A stretch of 46,351 nt of DNA from a virus. Shown in pieces: positions 5,713 to 16,765 of the stretch; the stretch's first letter is position 1; each line of letters begins with the position of its first letter. The stretch is from the IMG/VR virus record IMGVR_UViG_3300032242_001264, positions 1 through 46,351 of that record; one strand, 5' to 3'. The position numbers and the translations under genes are program-made. A model generated the notes under the pieces. That model searched no databases. It saw only the letters and a list, made by a program, of their open reading frames with translations, and was not told the DNA's origin.

Positions 5713-6270
5713 ATGATCAAAAACAATCTACAAGGCCATTTATTAGCAGCTAATCCCAGTAATCCCAGAGACGAGTTAGATCGTGCTGTGATATTGCTGA
5801 CCAGTCATACCAGCGGTAGCAGTGTGGGACTACAGATCAACAGGGTCTTGCCCGAACTCAGCTTGGCCAACATAGCCAACAACATAGGCATATGGATAGA
5901 TGATGATCAACCTGTATACAGTGGCGGCAGTGTAGGAGTCAACAAGATACACGTGATACATACCAATGATTGGTATGGTCATACCACAATTAAAATTACC
6001 AAAGATCTATGTGTGACCAATGATATATCTGTGTTGGCCGCTATCAGTAGAGGAGAAGGACCCGAGTATATACGGGCGTGTGCGGGCTTCTGGTTATGGG
6101 AAGATGGGCAGTTAGATCAACAGTTAGGAAACTTACCCGCAGAATTTGATCGACACAAATGGGAAACAGTACCTGCTACTGTTGAAAATGTATTTGGATC
6201 AACGGGATTGGAACAATGGCACGAAACATTAGAAGCCAGTGCCCGTATGCAGGTTTCACTTTGGTTTTAA
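5713..6270 (+). CDS. AlgH/YqgE (UPF0301) family protein
   Basis: About 185 residues with the family hallmarks in order: an N-terminal LLAANPSNPRDELDRAVILL segment, SHTSGSSVGLQINR at about 31-44, VYSGGSVG at 68-75, the HTNDW stretch near 83-87, SRGEGPEYI at about 112-120 and DGQLDQQL. AlgH/YqgE is a small bacterial protein of unsettled function widespread in Proteobacteria; a phage copy suggests acquisition from a host. The start at ATG 5713 is chosen because a TAAATA at 5699-5704 lies 8 bases upstream. Convergent with gp41, sharing 4 bases at the ends. Confidence 0.85.
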   Translation: MIKNNLQGHLLAANPSNPRDELDRAVILLTSHTSGSSVGLQINRVLPELSLANIANNIGIWIDDDQPVYSGGSVGVNKIHVIHTNDWYGHTTIKITKDLCVTNDISVLAAISRGEGPEYIRACAGFWLWEDGQLDQQLGNLPAEFDRHKWETVPATVENVFGSTGLEQWHETLEASARMQVSLWF

Positions 6271-7760
6271 TCCTTTTCAGGATTTAAATTACTCAACATA
6301 TTTCTAATCATAGGGCCAGTTGATGCTTTAACCTTGGGCTTCTCTATGCTCAAACCTTCTTTGGGATTGTCTCTATTGGCCCACGGAGCACTTGATACAT
6401 CCAGTTCTTCACTTACTGTATTGTTGGCTGTGCTGACAACGCTGGTTCGTTTGAAGCTGTTCATCATAGAGCTAGTGCCCTGTGCCTTTTGTTGACTAAA
6501 GCTCTGACCTTCTTCATCCTCACCGAGGTCGGTAATCCGCAGTGTATCCACATTGAATTCCAGTTCAACCTTCTGACCAACACCGCTACTACTACGTGTT
6601 TTCATAAACTGGATTTGATAACGTCCACGTTCCTTCATAGCGCGACTTGTAAAGATACCAATCACATTATCTGCTGTCATGATCTTACTCAAACCGCCAC
6701 TAATGTGACTGTGATCAAACTCAATTTCTTCAACAGCCGCACGGTTTAACTGACTAGCTGTAACAGTTACGCATTGGGTTTCCATAGCTAGATTTCGAAT
6801 CTCTTCAGACACATATTTGTCTTTTACGAACAGATCGCTGGGCGATACCTTCACTGATAAAGGCATCATCAAATCCAGGTAATCTATTAATAAAACGTCT
6901 GGTTTTACGCCTTTTTTGACCTGATATTCCTTCAAATAGGCTCGAATATCGTTACAATTTTTCCCCGAGGGCATATACTTGATCTGCATACTACCCGCCT
7001 TCTTTTCCATCATTTTAACCTTTAATTCAACATCGTCAATGTTCTTAAAGATCTCACGAGTTGGGATACCTGTAGTCATACTATCCAGACGCATGGACAC
7101 TAATTTCTCGCTCAATTCAAAAGTTAGGTACAGTACATTTAATCCTTGGAGTGCCCAGTTAACACCCATATTAGCCAGAAATAAACTTTTTCCGCCGCCA
7201 GAGCCAGCACAAAAAATATTAAGCTCGCCTCGATTGAACCCCCCATAAAGCTTCTTATCAATGCTAGGCCATCCAGTAGATATTTGTCCATTTCCGTCCT
7301 TTAATGCTTCTAGTCGAGCTCTCGGGTCCTCAAAGTAATCAGTACCCATATCTTTGTTTAGGCTAATTTGAATAGCGTCCTTGATCAACTTTTCCACAGG
7401 CCCATAATCGCCTGCTTCCAACAAATCACTGCTCTTAACAATAGCTCGTTCTAGCCCTTTATGTCGGCTAAAGTTCTCAAATTCGTCCATGAGCCATTCA
7501 TAGTTCTCACGGGGCAATGTCAGTTGTTGGAAGTCACTGCGGGTGGCTGCGTTGACAATGGCAACCTCGGGCATGACCTTATATTCGTCTACATACTTAT
7601 TAACAAACTCCGCGGCATCTTGTAGTCGTTGATCAAAGTTTTCATGATCAAAGATGTTCTGACAGCGGACAAATGTTTCTGCATCTGACAGGAACATTTC
7701 AAGATATAACTTCTGCATAGCAAAGTCATAATTGGGTTTAACAGTTTTTTCTTTATTCAT
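6267..7760 (-). CDS. 41: Replicative DNA helicase, gp41/DnaB-like
   Basis: 497 residues. A helical N-terminal domain of about 150 residues precedes a RecA-like motor with Walker A AGSGGGKS at 185-192 and Walker B VLLIDYLDLM at about 289-298. Downstream ASQLNR and KTRSSS segments match helicase motifs H3-H4. This is the hexameric 5'-3' fork helicase that pairs with the primase. It starts inside the end of the primase gene (8-base overlap), so the two are translationally coupled. The C-terminal 70 residues are polar and likely disordered. Weak AATCC/GGATT dyad at its 3' end may help convergent termination. Confidence 0.95.
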   Translation of the reverse strand: MNKEKTVKPNYDFAMQKLYLEMFLSDAETFVRCQNIFDHENFDQRLQDAAEFVNKYVDEYKVMPEVAIVNAATRSDFQQLTLPRENYEWLMDEFENFSRHKGLERAIVKSSDLLEAGDYGPVEKLIKDAIQISLNKDMGTDYFEDPRARLEALKDGNGQISTGWPSIDKKLYGGFNRGELNIFCAGSGGGKSLFLANMGVNWALQGLNVLYLTFELSEKLVSMRLDSMTTGIPTREIFKNIDDVELKVKMMEKKAGSMQIKYMPSGKNCNDIRAYLKEYQVKKGVKPDVLLIDYLDLMMPLSVKVSPSDLFVKDKYVSEEIRNLAMETQCVTVTASQLNRAAVEEIEFDHSHISGGLSKIMTADNVIGIFTSRAMKERGRYQIQFMKTRSSSGVGQKVELEFNVDTLRITDLGEDEEGQSFSQQKAQGTSSMMNSFKRTSVVSTANNTVSEELDVSSAPWANRDNPKEGLSIEKPKVKASTGPMIRNMLSNLNPEKD

Positions 7761-8757
7761 CTTTTAGTGCTTCTAGTTTTTTCTTTAGTAAATTAATCTT
7801 GATCTCACCATGAACTTTATAGTGAAGAATAGTAGTTAGCACATAGAGGCGACCATACTTTTTAACTGCGTCTGCAATGTCCTTGACATCATCACCCCAC
7901 GGCGGCAAACTGGCACTCCATCCATTCTTAATAGCAGCCGCTAACATTTTAGCTCCGGGCTTGTCTCTATCAGGCACTACAATAACTTCACGTCCTAGAT
8001 TGTTTAGGCGCATGATTTGAGCATCGTTGGGCTCATTGGTCATAATGCCCACACCATCGATAGCAATGGCATCAAATTGTCCTTCTGCTACAATCACAAA
8101 CTTGCGATCGTAATGTTGTGCATCTAGATTAAACACATAACCACTTTGACTATCGGTGAGATACTTTGGCTTGCCTTCTGTAATCTTACGTCCGGTATAG
8201 CCCACAATTTTACCTTCATGATAGAATGGGATCATTACCCTATCTTTATATCCTGCGGCTGGACTCCACATCCAATTATACCAATCTAGTTCCATACCGC
8301 GGCCTAAAATGTATTCTACTATCTTGCCAATGTCTTCTGCTATATCGGGCAAGTATGAAGTATTAATCCATTCCATTACGGACATGGTACCTTCTGGCAA
8401 CGGTTTTTCCAACAGTGTAAAATTCAGTGCTTTCTTCAGTACAGGTTGATCATCTTTGATCTTTAGTGCGGCTAGATTAAGTTTGCCTATATCCGCTTCG
8501 CCCATGCCCATCCAACTGAATAGGCTTTTAGTATTCTTACTTAACAGTTTGCCCGGCGTCCAACCTGCGGCAAATTGGCAATTGAAACAGTGATAAACGA
8601 ATCCGTCGCTTTCTACACGTACACCGCCACGGAGTCTTGTGTCGTAGCCTTCTCCCCTATGTTGACAACAGGGTGCGTCGAAACTTGTCCAACCACCAGA
8701 GGTCAGCTTTCGTTTAGGAGGTAGTAGTGCTAATAATGCAGATTGTATATCGTTCAC
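7753..8757 (-). CDS. 61: DNA primase, gp61-like
   Basis: 334 residues. A CHC2-type zinc-binding domain is visible: C30/C31 and H33 with C57 and C60 (YHCFNCQF). The Toprim core has the invariant glutamate in VAEGQFDAI at about 223-231 and the acidic triad region VVPDRDKPG at about 260-268. It synthesises RNA primers on the lagging strand with gp41. The start is a GTG at 8757, 9 bases after the upstream stop; no ribosome binding site is obvious, so it may depend on reinitiation from the upstream gene. Confidence 0.92.
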   Translation of the reverse strand: MNDIQSALLALLPPKRKLTSGGWTSFDAPCCQHRGEGYDTRLRGGVRVESDGFVYHCFNCQFAAGWTPGKLLSKNTKSLFSWMGMGEADIGKLNLAALKIKDDQPVLKKALNFTLLEKPLPEGTMSVMEWINTSYLPDIAEDIGKIVEYILGRGMELDWYNWMWSPAAGYKDRVMIPFYHEGKIVGYTGRKITEGKPKYLTDSQSGYVFNLDAQHYDRKFVIVAEGQFDAIAIDGVGIMTNEPNDAQIMRLNNLGREVIVVPDRDKPGAKMLAAAIKNGWSASLPPWGDDVKDIADAVKKYGRLYVLTTILHYKVHGEIKINLLKKKLEALKDE

Positions 8758-9621: not shown

Positions 9622-10005
9622 ATGTCCTTACCCAACACCTTCCAAGATAACTATCCCTTTGTGGCCTGTGTCAAATCAAATGACATAGAGTATGTGGGTA
9701 TCGTGATCAATTTCGACGATTACGTAGCCAGTATCTACGATATATCTGTAATTAAAACGGATGAAGAACGTAAACTTTTTCTAGAGATGGGAGAAGTTTG
9801 GTGGTGGGAAAGTAATAGAAAAATTCCCATTAATATATTTCTAAAGAAAGAAATGCAGCTCTTTAAATATGCTATTAAAACATTCAATAGCAAAGATGCG
9901 GAAATAGTATTCGGGCCTACAGTAAATCTAAGTGAAATTGCCGAGAAGCGTATCAAACGTAAATCGATACAACTAGTTAGAATCCCTAAGAATAACCGTA
10001 GCTAA
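9622..10005 (+). CDS. Conserved T4-like phage protein of unknown function (127 aa)
   Basis: The protein contains YVGIVINFDDYVASIYDI and MGEVWWWESNRKIPINIFL segments, patterns I associate with an uncharacterised family conserved in aquatic T4-like phages. The C-terminal part is basic (EKRIKRKS...). It is mixed alpha/beta with no nuclease or NTPase motif. The gene points away from the structural gene at 8767-9600 across a 21-base divergent spacer, and its end overlaps the convergent DnaE-like gene by 20 bases. Confidence 0.8.
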   Translation: MSLPNTFQDNYPFVACVKSNDIEYVGIVINFDDYVASIYDISVIKTDEERKLFLEMGEVWWWESNRKIPINIFLKKEMQLFKYAIKTFNSKDAEIVFGPTVNLSEIAEKRIKRKSIQLVRIPKNNRS

Positions 10006-10564
10006 TACCTTCACAGATAAGATTCATCTGCACCACGATAACATGAGCATAGGCTATAGCGTGGGCCTTTTTAAAATAATATTCATCACCGGCGGGCTTC
10101 TGCCAAACTTCGCTCTTCACGACGGACCATTCTTGCCCAATCAGATATCGTTTTGCCGGGCGGATAATAGCCAATACAGCGGCTAACTCCTCGATACTCG
10201 TCGGTTTCATCTGTCTCAATATCGCCCCATGTCCGTTCACATGAAACAACAAATTCACGAATTCGTCTTGCAGTAATAAATCCCATAATGGTTCCGTGTT
10301 AAGTAATTCGATTAAGTGAGCTTCATTCCTAACATCCTTGTATACTGATACATTTAGGAAATCAAGTTTGAAGTATCCGCGATCCTCTGCCGTCTTGTAA
10401 TCAATGTTAGCAGTATCAGTTAGTGGATTATAGGGGATAGAGTGACAATATACACCGGTGTTGTGTTTCTTAAAACTTCCATTTTCTGATATAGCCGCCG
10501 GCACATGTTTGATAACATCAAGTGCCTGTGTCCTATCAAAGAAGTCAATATCAATATCCGGCAT
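9986..10564 (-). CDS. Mini DnaE-like protein (fragment of bacterial Pol III alpha fold)
   Basis: About 192 residues from ATG 10564 (MPDIDIDF...). Three blocks occur in the same order as in bacterial PolC/DnaE alpha subunits. They are PDIDIDF at the N-terminus, corresponding to the catalytic PDxDxDF; a GYFKLDFLNVSVY block, like the KxDFLGL segment; and an LFHVNGHGAILRQMKP-SIEELAAVLAIIRPAK block, like the vFQLES...lkP-siedl-AL-RPG segment. A terminal FKKAHAIAYAHV block matches FNKSHAVAYA. The intervening parts of a 1000-residue polymerase are missing, so it is not a complete polymerase. The same compact form recurs, to my recollection, in T4-like phages, arguing for a conserved small protein rather than decay. 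It overlaps the HldE-kinase-like gene by 14 bases. Confidence 0.7.
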   Translation of the reverse strand: MPDIDIDFFDRTQALDVIKHVPAAISENGSFKKHNTGVYCHSIPYNPLTDTANIDYKTAEDRGYFKLDFLNVSVYKDVRNEAHLIELLNTEPLWDLLLQDEFVNLLFHVNGHGAILRQMKPTSIEELAAVLAIIRPAKRYLIGQEWSVVKSEVWQKPAGDEYYFKKAHAIAYAHVIVVQMNLICEGISYGYS

Positions 10565-12713: not shown

Positions 12714-13093
12714 AACTCTCCACTTTCAGCTAATTTTAACATTAGGCTATATTGTTCGTATGCTTTTTTCACCGCTGGGTATTTGTCTTTCAAATACCGC
12801 TCGTGTTCTTTCTGTTCCATCAGTGTTTCAAACATTCTATAATGTCCGTGTTTGGCCATATTGTTAAACACTTCAGATTCAAAGTTTGCAATCTTTTCTA
12901 ATTCACTTTCTGCAATTTCTACAGTGTACAATGGCTCACTATCAACTACAACATCTTCATAGACCCGATTAAAGTCCATAGGATCCTTAAAGTATTTTAT
13001 GTTAACTTTATGATATCTACTTGCTCTTTTATTTGTATCAAGGACTTGAATTCTATGATGTTCACAAAATTCTTTTATGTTATTATCGGTCAT
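12710..13093 (-). CDS. Conserved phage protein of unknown function (127 aa)
   Basis: Mixed alpha/beta, with an N-terminal region of strands (HRIQVLDTNKRASRYHKV, VYEDVVVDSEPLYTVEI) and a helical, charged C-terminal half (EQKEHERYLKDKYPAVKKAYEQY) that may form a coiled coil. ATGA overlap with the zinc-finger protein upstream and GTGA overlap with the DUF2452 gene downstream tie it into the operon. No motif recognised. Confidence 0.8.
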   Translation of the reverse strand: MTDNNIKEFCEHHRIQVLDTNKRASRYHKVNIKYFKDPMDFNRVYEDVVVDSEPLYTVEIAESELEKIANFESEVFNNMAKHGHYRMFETLMEQKEHERYLKDKYPAVKKAYEQYSLMLKLAESGEL

Positions 13094-13785
13094 TTTATTC
13101 CAACCTCTCTGCAGATTTCTTTTACTAATGCAACATCTGCAGGAATTTCTTTAAACTTACGCAACCAGAATGGAACATCAAATGCAGGGGCAATCATTTC
13201 TAATTGCTCGTCACTCATGGATTTAATCATCTTTTGTCCTGCATTACTGTTTAAAATTACCCAAGGACTAATGCGACCATTTCTGATATCATGCACTGCT
13301 TTGTTGAGACTTGCATAGGTAAAGTAATGTGCAAATTCTGCATTATGCTCGTCAGCCCATTCCATCATTGTCTGTAAACTTCTTTGCACTGCTGACTCAA
13401 CTGGTTCCACTTTGATCATGTCATACAGATATTTTTCATACAGTTCGTCACGGCACCATAGGTCCAACTTGACACCACTTTTGATCACATAGTCGATAAA
13501 CTTGTCTGGGTACAATGGATTTACGTTGTTGATAAAACTGCCAAATTTTACAAAGGCATTGTAATAACTGCTGTCTGCAAAGTTGTTATAGGTCTTGGGT
13601 TTCTTAGCGTTCTGTGTCAATTGCCAGAAACGATTAAATGCAACAAATCCCGCTTGAACACGCTTTTCAGTTTCCTGCAAAGCCCTACGTTTGCGTTCGC
13701 ACATGTGCGCAACAAGAGTCTTATCTTTCATAAAACTCTTATTACAGTGAACACATTTATAAGGTTGTTCTACTAGTTGCATCAT
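13090..13785 (-). CDS. Conserved phage protein with N-terminal C2H2-type zinc finger (231 aa)
   Basis: Residues about 11-28 (CVHCNKSFMKDKTLVAHMC) form a zinc-finger-like motif with the spacing C-x2-C...H-x-C. The remaining 200 residues are mostly helical and contain FWLRKFKEIPADVALVKEI at the C-terminus. Similar proteins are conserved in T4-like phages of aquatic bacteria next to uvsW and clamp-loader genes; none has a known role that I can name. Nucleic-acid or protein binding through the finger is likely but not shown. Confidence 0.8.
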   Translation of the reverse strand: MMQLVEQPYKCVHCNKSFMKDKTLVAHMCERKRRALQETEKRVQAGFVAFNRFWQLTQNAKKPKTYNNFADSSYYNAFVKFGSFINNVNPLYPDKFIDYVIKSGVKLDLWCRDELYEKYLYDMIKVEPVESAVQRSLQTMMEWADEHNAEFAHYFTYASLNKAVHDIRNGRISPWVILNSNAGQKMIKSMSDEQLEMIAPAFDVPFWLRKFKEIPADVALVKEICREVGIK

Positions 13786-14768: not shown

Positions 14769-15272
14769 TTACCAACACTTAGTATAATCTACTAATTCAC
14801 TTTGACGGCTAACTTCTTTGACAAAGTATGCACAGGTCGGAACATCACCGGCATGTAATGGAGTTGTCAATAACTGTCCTTGGCGCATCTTTGGAAAATA
14901 CCATTTAACATCATGATAGATATCAATGATATCGATATCTAAAAATTCTGGTCTAAAACTGCTCAACGGGTTAAAACAGAATGTTTTGAAACCACGATCA
15001 TTTAAACTAGTAAGTGGTAGGATCTCCATGTCCGGGCCCTCTGGGTCTCCAACAATTGTACACCAATCTAATGGCATTACTAGCTCATGTTTTCCTATTT
15101 TTAGTGCTGCTGCTGGACCCGTAAAACTTTCAAGAAATATTAGTGGAACAAAGAAGTAATCGGGGTTAGAACTATCACTGTTGTCTAATACAGAAAATCT
15201 CAAGTCGTCGTCTATCTCTTCGGGTAAATCATTCAGGAAGAATGTTTTATTTTCTAATGTGAGAATCTGCAT
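14769..15272 (-). CDS. Conserved phage protein of unknown function (167 aa)
   Basis: A beta-rich protein containing LVMPLDWCTIVGDP, MRQGQLLTTPL and a C-terminal CAYFVKEVSRQSELVD segment ending in KCW. Genes of this type sit directly downstream of uvsW in aquatic T4-like phages. The start codon overlaps the UvsW stop (TAATG), so its level should follow UvsW. I see no enzymatic or DNA-binding motif. Confidence 0.8.
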   Translation of the reverse strand: MQILTLENKTFFLNDLPEEIDDDLRFSVLDNSDSSNPDYFFVPLIFLESFTGPAAALKIGKHELVMPLDWCTIVGDPEGPDMEILPLTSLNDRGFKTFCFNPLSSFRPEFLDIDIIDIYHDVKWYFPKMRQGQLLTTPLHAGDVPTCAYFVKEVSRQSELVDYTKCW

Positions 15273-16765
15273 TATTGGTATTTGACCTTTTCAATTGTAA
15301 ATGGGTAATGTGCATCTTTGTAGAACTTCTTTCGTTCTGTTAGATGCCGTTTTGCGTATTTGGTGCTGGCAGTTAAGTCCCAGATTTGTACGAAGTCCTT
15401 GTCGTCGGCTTTTCTAATGCCACGACCAATACTTTGTATAACGCGAACAAAGCTCTTTCCGGGCTCCAAAAGAACCAGATTAAAAATACGGGGGATATTA
15501 ATACCCACAGCGGCCACACCGTAAGTCGCCACAATAATCTTGTTATCAGCAGTTTTGATTTCGTCATATGATTCTTTTCGATCTTTAGTTTTAACTGCGC
15601 CTGATACAAATGCAACGTCTGGTTTTTCTCCTAATAGAGAAAACAAATCACTTAAATGTGTTTGTAAAAATGTGCCGCTCTCAATTCTATCTACTAATAC
15701 AAGAGTGTTTCCTGTTTCCGCAATACCTTTAATTATATTTGACAAGTAAGTCATGCGTTCAGTATTGGTTACAAGATATTTTAGCTCCTCTGCATAACCA
15801 CCAAATTCTTTCCATTCAGCTGTCTGTATAATATTGACATGACATCCACTCAACACACCTGCTTCTTGCAATGTATGTGCCTTGACTCGATTAACGACTT
15901 CGCCTAAACTTGCTCGCAATGACTGAAATTCATGGTCTGCTTTTGGCACAGTTCCAGTTAATCCCCAGCGTATAGGAGCATTGGCTAGATTGCGTGTCAA
16001 TAATGTTTTCAACACTTCTGCTTTAGCCATATGAACCTCATCAACCATCACAGTAGCAACACCGTCTAACAATTCTGCCAGTGTCAGCATCTCTTCATCA
16101 CGGTCAAATTCTTTGGATTTTTTGTCTAAAATATTGAGACTTTGCCAAGTGCAAATAGTGTGGGTTTTATTTAGGTCTTTTCTGTCACCGTAATAGACGC
16201 CAACATCTAATTTACAATTGACAAAATCTTCTTCAGTTTGTTCAACTAAACTCTTGTTAGGAACGATGGTTATTGTTCGACCATATTTTTCACAAATTTT
16301 ACTCAAAGTTGCAGTGGTAATTGTCTTGCCAAAACCAGTGGCAATTTCTTGGATACACTGAGGATTCTCAAGAAACTTATTGATAACTTCAACTTGGTCA
16401 TCTCGCAGTCGAATTTTTTCTCCTGCAAAACGATGTCCTTCTGGCCACGTTTGATCACCCCAAAAATCTTCAGAAATTTCAGGAAAATCCAGGGCCACAG
16501 GACGGCGTAGATCTTCAACTTCAATATAATAATTCTTTGCCTCGAGAAATTCCAACACCTGCGGCAGCATACTCAAGTAGGTAGTTCCACCGAGGCCGAA
16601 AAAACTAATACTACCGTCCCAGCGTCCTAATTTATAGCTGGGTCTATAGCGGGCAGTAGGGTCTTCGTACTTGAATTTTTTGACCAAAGCCTTACGTGTA
16701 TCAAGATCTAAATTTTCAATCTTGATATTAACTTCGTCTTTGATTATAATTTTACAAGAGGACAA
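15272..16765 (-). CDS. uvsW: UvsW-like superfamily 2 helicase
   Basis: 497 residues. An N-terminal domain (about 1-110, with LGRWDGSISFF) matches the small DNA-binding domain of T4 UvsW. The SF2 motor follows: motif I ATGFGKT at 142-148, motif II DEVH at 242-245, motif III LTGT near 269-272, and motif VI QSIGRGIRK in the second domain. UvsW remodels branched DNA (fork regression, R-loop and Holliday junction branch migration) and moves T4 from origin- to recombination-dependent replication. It overlaps the HARP-like gene by 14 bases. Confidence 0.95.
   Translation of the reverse strand: MSSCKIIIKDEVNIKIENLDLDTRKALVKKFKYEDPTARYRPSYKLGRWDGSISFFGLGGTTYLSMLPQVLEFLEAKNYYIEVEDLRRPVALDFPEISEDFWGDQTWPEGHRFAGEKIRLRDDQVEVINKFLENPQCIQEIATGFGKTITTATLSKICEKYGRTITIVPNKSLVEQTEEDFVNCKLDVGVYYGDRKDLNKTHTICTWQSLNILDKKSKEFDRDEEMLTLAELLDGVATVMVDEVHMAKAEVLKTLLTRNLANAPIRWGLTGTVPKADHEFQSLRASLGEVVNRVKAHTLQEAGVLSGCHVNIIQTAEWKEFGGYAEELKYLVTNTERMTYLSNIIKGIAETGNTLVLVDRIESGTFLQTHLSDLFSLLGEKPDVAFVSGAVKTKDRKESYDEIKTADNKIIVATYGVAAVGINIPRIFNLVLLEPGKSFVRVIQSIGRGIRKADDKDFVQIWDLTASTKYAKRHLTERKKFYKDAHYPFTIEKVKYQ

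Follow-up and report, generated by a model that had tools for sequence, protein, structure and literature searches.

Iyer and co-workers described a split, minimal form of the DNA polymerase III (Pol III) α subunit in group 2.2 jumbo phages (Iyer et al., 2021, Viruses 13:63; PMC7824862). A truncated α-like protein of 172 amino acids was noticed in phage CBB (PMC5259590) and an α subunit, gp316, was reported for phage Atu_ph07 (PMC6102473). In a marine survey, 51.9% of the largest jumbo-phage cluster had PF07733 (PMC9123017). In the literature searched, we found no experiment on split minimal Pol III. Here, we analyse an open reading frame (ORF), mini-DnaE, in IMG/VR virus record IMGVR_UViG_3300032242_001264. 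The sequence analysed, hereafter the window, is 46,351 nucleotides (nt) long and is a fragment of a larger phage genome. Mini-DnaE is almost certainly the C-terminal half (C-half) of a split mini-Pol III α. It does not differ in kind from the protein of Iyer et al., who reached the same conclusion, and has homologues in Atu_ph07, CBB and PA5oct. New here are an unannotated member of the family, the exact split point with respect to the Escherichia coli enzyme, counts of invariant residues across the family, and divergent members with the two halves ~6–20 kb apart. Because both the family and the split were already published, the value of this work lies in a clean confirmation and in sharper, testable details.

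The halves share with bacterial DnaE, the Pol III α subunit, the palm fold, three catalytic Asp residues and the HxxG, IRP and K-x-H motifs, in that order. The contexts of the palm Asp residues, D-x-D and K-x-D-[FIL]-L, are present in the C-half. Unlike bacterial DnaE, the phage protein is made as two chains, lacks the PHP, thumb, clamp-binding and OB domains, and has lost most of the fingers. In Krampusvirus (Microbacterium phage AnnaSerena genes 56 and 57) DnaE is also spread over two genes, which are adjacent. That split lies between PHP and polymerase, leaves the polymerase otherwise full-length, and is an event independent of the jumbo-phage split. Cyanobacteria encode a split-intein DnaE in two genes. 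Conversely, the phage halves have no intein parts; the N-terminal half (N-half) ends EFLR-stop, the C-half starts MPDIDIDF, and the split point is different. A split intein was rejected, the junction having no extra residues.

Sequence and predicted fold of the C-half

In hidden Markov model (HMM) searches, the C-half matched PHROG 11778, a ‘DNA polymerase’ family (3.8e-67), and the DnaE family PHROG 405 (9.4e-8). Mycobacterium tuberculosis (Mtb) DnaE1 was matched using phmmer (E 0.0097) and a sequence search of the PDB returned Pol III α only. The match to the Pfam finger domain was marginal (E 0.0058, below the cut-off). An initial annotation of the locus had listed four blocks in Pol III α order. 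The blocks PDIDIDF, GYFKLDFLN, LFHVNG...MKP...IRPAK and FKKAHAIAYAHV do occur in DnaE order, and the matches to PHROG 11778, PHROG 405 and Mtb DnaE1 show that this is not due to chance, as does the family HMM score for the matching E. coli DnaE segments (33.7 bits, with 12.1 bits for the best of 5000 shuffles).

An AlphaFold2 model of the C-half, made with 91 sequences, had a pLDDT of 93.7. When the model was compared with the PDB using Foldseek, the top 14 matches were Pol III α or DNA polymerase entries (E 4e-4 to 0.3) and the remainder were noise. The TM-scores of ~0.4 probably reflect deletions and the splitting of the chain. Profile search and structure prediction, which the initial annotation had put forward as checks, thus returned DnaE and the DnaE fold respectively.

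The same annotation counted two catalytic Asp residues. In fact, all three are kept; PDIDIDF contains the equivalents of E. coli D401 and D403, and KLDFL contains that of D555. Residues D3, D5 and D7 of the C-half correspond to D401, D403 and D405, and K66 and D68 to K553 and D555. Across 91 diverse aligned C-halves, residues D3, D5, D7, H34, G37, K66, D68, W94, R135, P136, K138, K165 and H168 are invariant. D-x-D-x-D is kept in every C-half ORF examined. The C-half is under purifying selection (median omega 0.13 for pairs with usable synonymous divergence; the few saturated pairs above 1 give meaningless values).

Mini-DnaE is encoded on the minus strand, a detail missing from the initial annotation, with its ATG at 10564–10562 and stop codon at 9988–9986. 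The plus strand has no open frame between 9986 and 10564. The ATG at 10564 is the likely start, judged from sequence, because most IMG/VR relatives begin exactly at MPDIDID. A TTG start, which would give a 216-residue protein, was rejected on the same grounds. The upstream PfkB/HldE-kinase-like gene has its stop at 10551. Hence the overlap between the two genes, claimed at the outset, is real; these 14 nt may serve translational coupling.

The N-half is encoded by a separate gene

Fourteen of 15 genomes with a C-half contain one further short ORF matching PF07733 above the cut-off (model positions ~15–97, E 1e-8 to 1e-14). The fifteenth, with no such match, is a 150-kb fragment. Once this N-half had been found, the idea of a stand-alone mini-protein was rejected. 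The initial annotation had proposed a reduced relative of DnaE with a helping role at the phage fork. Homology, fold and conserved synteny with primase, DnaB, UvsW, UvsX and SSB support that proposal; the stand-alone part falls, as the ORF is one half of a split enzyme.

The N-half family is PHROG 11127 and its members are ~170 residues long (mostly 162–190). They contain the part of the palm that precedes the C-half, including the GxGRGS triphosphate loop, and end ...LDxxEFL[RKN]-stop. In 60 sequences W133-G134-x-G136-R137-G138-S139-S140 is invariant. The AlphaFold2 model (pLDDT 92.1) has Pol III α, PolC or DNA polymerase entries as all of its top 19 fold matches in the PDB. The N-half aligns to residues 319–392 of E. 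coli DnaE and the C-half begins at 399. Thus, the halves abut, with six residues (393–398) missing.

Nearly all phage records with a C-half, identified using tblastn, also have an N-half. Among 11 further IMG/VR contigs, the N-half was present in 3/3 contigs above 330 kb and 2/8 below 180 kb. Evolutionary distances for the two halves are correlated (r 0.75, Mantel p 0.0005), though shared ancestry alone could produce this correlation. Neither fused nor adjacent genes were found at 80 N-half loci (3 kb flanks) or among 172 C-half ORFs. Instead, the N-half gene belongs to a separate, small conserved cassette, where it is flanked by genes of ~84 and 94 codons and beside a GroES-like co-chaperonin gene (loci L098, L111 and L114–L193). 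In divergent members the two halves are ~6–20 kb apart, and this closer spacing supports a joint function. In one such jumbo phage (G008:64500–76000) the distance is ~6 kb, with a clamp-loader-like AAA gene between the halves, an arrangement that is possibly closer to the ancestral one. In two further divergent contigs (G009 and G010) the N-half is beside UvsW.

Parts of DnaE retained and lost

Intact E. coli DnaE scored 9.8 bits with the C-half HMM, in three pieces (399–419, 596–641 and 752–767); the best of 5000 shuffles scored 12.1 bits. Removing residues 428–519 (thumb) and 653–737 (most of the index finger) raised the score to 34.0 bits, and a variant with the thumb cut at 428–507 scored 33.7 bits. 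This gain indicates that the C-half is, at the level of sequence, a palm from which the thumb and the finger insert have both been deleted. A remnant of the fingers, MKP...IRPAK with H168, is kept. By eye, K-H-N-T-G-V (C-half residues 33–38) sits where E. coli has K-H-A-G-G-V (510–515).

No PHP or HHH_6 domain was found in the 14 large genomes searched, and a third piece elsewhere carrying PHP, thumb or fingers was rejected for this reason. Matches to PF17657 fall nearly all on the C-half itself, the exception being one weak, sub-threshold match in CBB. The sequence QMNLI/QLNLL near the C-terminus was not counted as a clamp-binding motif because it lies inside a long terminal helix homologous to the ‘YQTxxLK’ region of DnaE.

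Distribution and genomic context

Using tblastn, 82 phage records matched the C-half, ~60 of them with the short form. The short form occurs in jumbo phages of Sinorhizobium (54% identical), Agrobacterium, Pseudomonas, Vibrio, Klebsiella, E. coli, Erwinia, Salmonella, Xanthomonas, Salicola and Stenotrophomonas, and in one 141-kb Alishewanella phage. Most copies carry the annotation hypothetical, ‘membrane protein’ or ‘DNA polymerase’. In IMG/VR, the C-half matched more than 550 stretches, and a search of plasmids returned only ordinary full DnaE or one weak unannotated match. A family B polymerase is encoded in 14 of the 15 C-half genomes, the exception being the one fragment, and no family A polymerase was found in the C-half genomes searched. 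Among the window genes checked there was no match to family B, the window being a 46-kb fragment.

Mini-DnaE lies within a conserved cassette, SSB-UvsX-UvsY-UvsW … mini-DnaE … primase-DnaB (Table 1). Its neighbours in 80 IMG/VR loci are PHROG 11637 (77 loci), PHROG 11058 (75), a virion protein (73), primase (69), UvsW (68), DnaB (60) and UvsX (47), counts for distant genes being limited by contig ends. The PHROG 11058 protein is perhaps a replication factor.

Table 1. Predicted features in and around mini-DnaE (window positions).
Feature	Position	Strand	Remarks
C-terminal half of split minimal DNA polymerase III α, PHROG 11778	9986..10564	-	192 amino acids; palm D3/D5/D7, K66-x-D68, reduced finger region, FKKAHAIAY helix
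Codons 1–7, MPDIDID	10544..10564	-	Likely ATG at E. coli M399 equivalent; D3, D5 are metal-ligand positions
KLDFLN, residues 66–71	10352..10369	-	Third catalytic Asp, D68, equivalent to E. coli D555
Overlap of PfkB/HldE-kinase-like gene end and mini-DnaE start	10551..10564	-	14 nt
Convergent 127-amino-acid gene, PHROG 11637	9622..10005	+	3' ends overlap mini-DnaE by 20 nt; adjoins in 77/80 loci
DnaG-type primase, PHROG 47	7753..8757	-	Conserved downstream neighbour
DnaB-like replicative helicase, PHROG 19	6267..7760	-	Conserved downstream neighbour
UvsW-like helicase	15272..16765	-	Conserved upstream, same cassette
PHROG 11058 protein	13090..13785	-	Weak N-terminal zinc-finger match; most constant upstream neighbour, 75/80

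The PHROG 11637 gene (~120 codons) is always on the strand opposite to mini-DnaE, in an otherwise co-directional cassette. Its overlap with the mini-DnaE 3' end is usually 4–30 nt, and most isolate phages checked have the same arrangement. Upstream of mini-DnaE, between 10551 and 11682 on the minus strand, two overlapping genes encode an HldE-like kinase (PfkB) and nucleotidyltransferase, and a cupin-like gene comes next. HldE-like genes adjoin mini-DnaE in just 15–25 of the 80 loci; they are therefore an accessory sugar cassette, outside the split-polymerase system.

Proposed function

As a whole, the best explanation, and a likely one, is that the C-half is the metal-binding half of a split minimal C-family nucleotidyltransferase that acts as an auxiliary polymerase at the fork. 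Pairing of N-half and C-half as a catalytic heterodimer is predicted with slightly greater confidence, whereas we put a role for the dimer in fork synthesis at about even. The halves would bind non-covalently and rebuild one palm active site, in which GxGRGS of the N-half would hold the triphosphate and D3, D5 and D68 of the C-half the metals. Least certainly, the dimer might serve as an auxiliary DNA polymerase alongside the T4-like family B polymerase of the phage. It might carry out short-patch synthesis at the fork, by extending RNA primers made by the neighbouring primase or by filling gaps. Short synthesis, rather than bulk replication, is suggested because the two halves lack a thumb, PHP and C-terminal domains and have lost most of the fingers. 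The family B enzyme could take over after primer extension, much as DnaE hands to PolC in Bacillus.

Some observations weigh against this proposal. The thumb (~428–507) and most of the index finger (~653–737, including RRA at 709; E. coli numbering) are deleted, which may leave templated synthesis weak or dependent on a further protein. The N-half partner gene was not found in the 46-kb window, which its being a fragment would explain. Furthermore, gene neighbourhood is the sole basis for the role in primer extension.

Loss of thumb, PHP and most of the fingers, with an invariant palm active site, would also fit a catalytically active nucleotidyltransferase other than a templated DNA polymerase, for example one that extends RNA or DNA ends by adding nucleotides. 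The Pol-β-like nucleotidyltransferase superfamily includes many non-polymerases, and a family B polymerase is already present in these genomes as the replicative enzyme. Conversely, the constant neighbours are fork and recombination proteins, which favours DNA synthesis, and part of the finger region (MKP...IRPAK, H168) is retained. We regard a non-templated enzyme as unlikely. Every large genome checked that encodes the C-half also encodes a family B polymerase, as would be expected if the C-half were a structural or regulatory subunit of a family B holoenzyme in which the palm just binds nucleotide or primer ends. A pure scaffold would need no invariant metal ligands, however, and we judge this role very improbable. 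More improbable again is a decoy or catalytically unimportant subunit, which would bind partners of host Pol III or compete at the primer end to the benefit of the phage; the initial annotation had suggested competition with host Pol III. Phages do inhibit host replication and a DnaE-like surface is kept. Against this, the catalytic Asp residues are invariant in all C-halves examined, which is unlike a decoy; PHP, HHH/C-terminal and other host-contacting regions are absent, with neither PHP nor HHH_6 found in any of 14 genomes; and an N-half under equal constraint is conserved alongside the C-half in highly divergent phages.

Our preferred reading remains the two-chain auxiliary polymerase. 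More tentatively, the dimer (~360 residues) may be the smallest known C-family catalytic core, thumbless and almost fingerless, acting between primase and family B replicase either as a dedicated primer-extension polymerase or as a non-polymerase nucleotidyltransferase. Within the jumbo phages, a large group has retained a pair of polymerases with no evolutionary relationship to each other: a family B enzyme of the T4-like type, and a Pol III core spread over two genes in which the active site is intact and the thumb, PHP and clamp-binding parts are gone. If active, the dimer would define the minimal C-family polymerase and, being small (168 + 192 residues), would be easily made and assayed.
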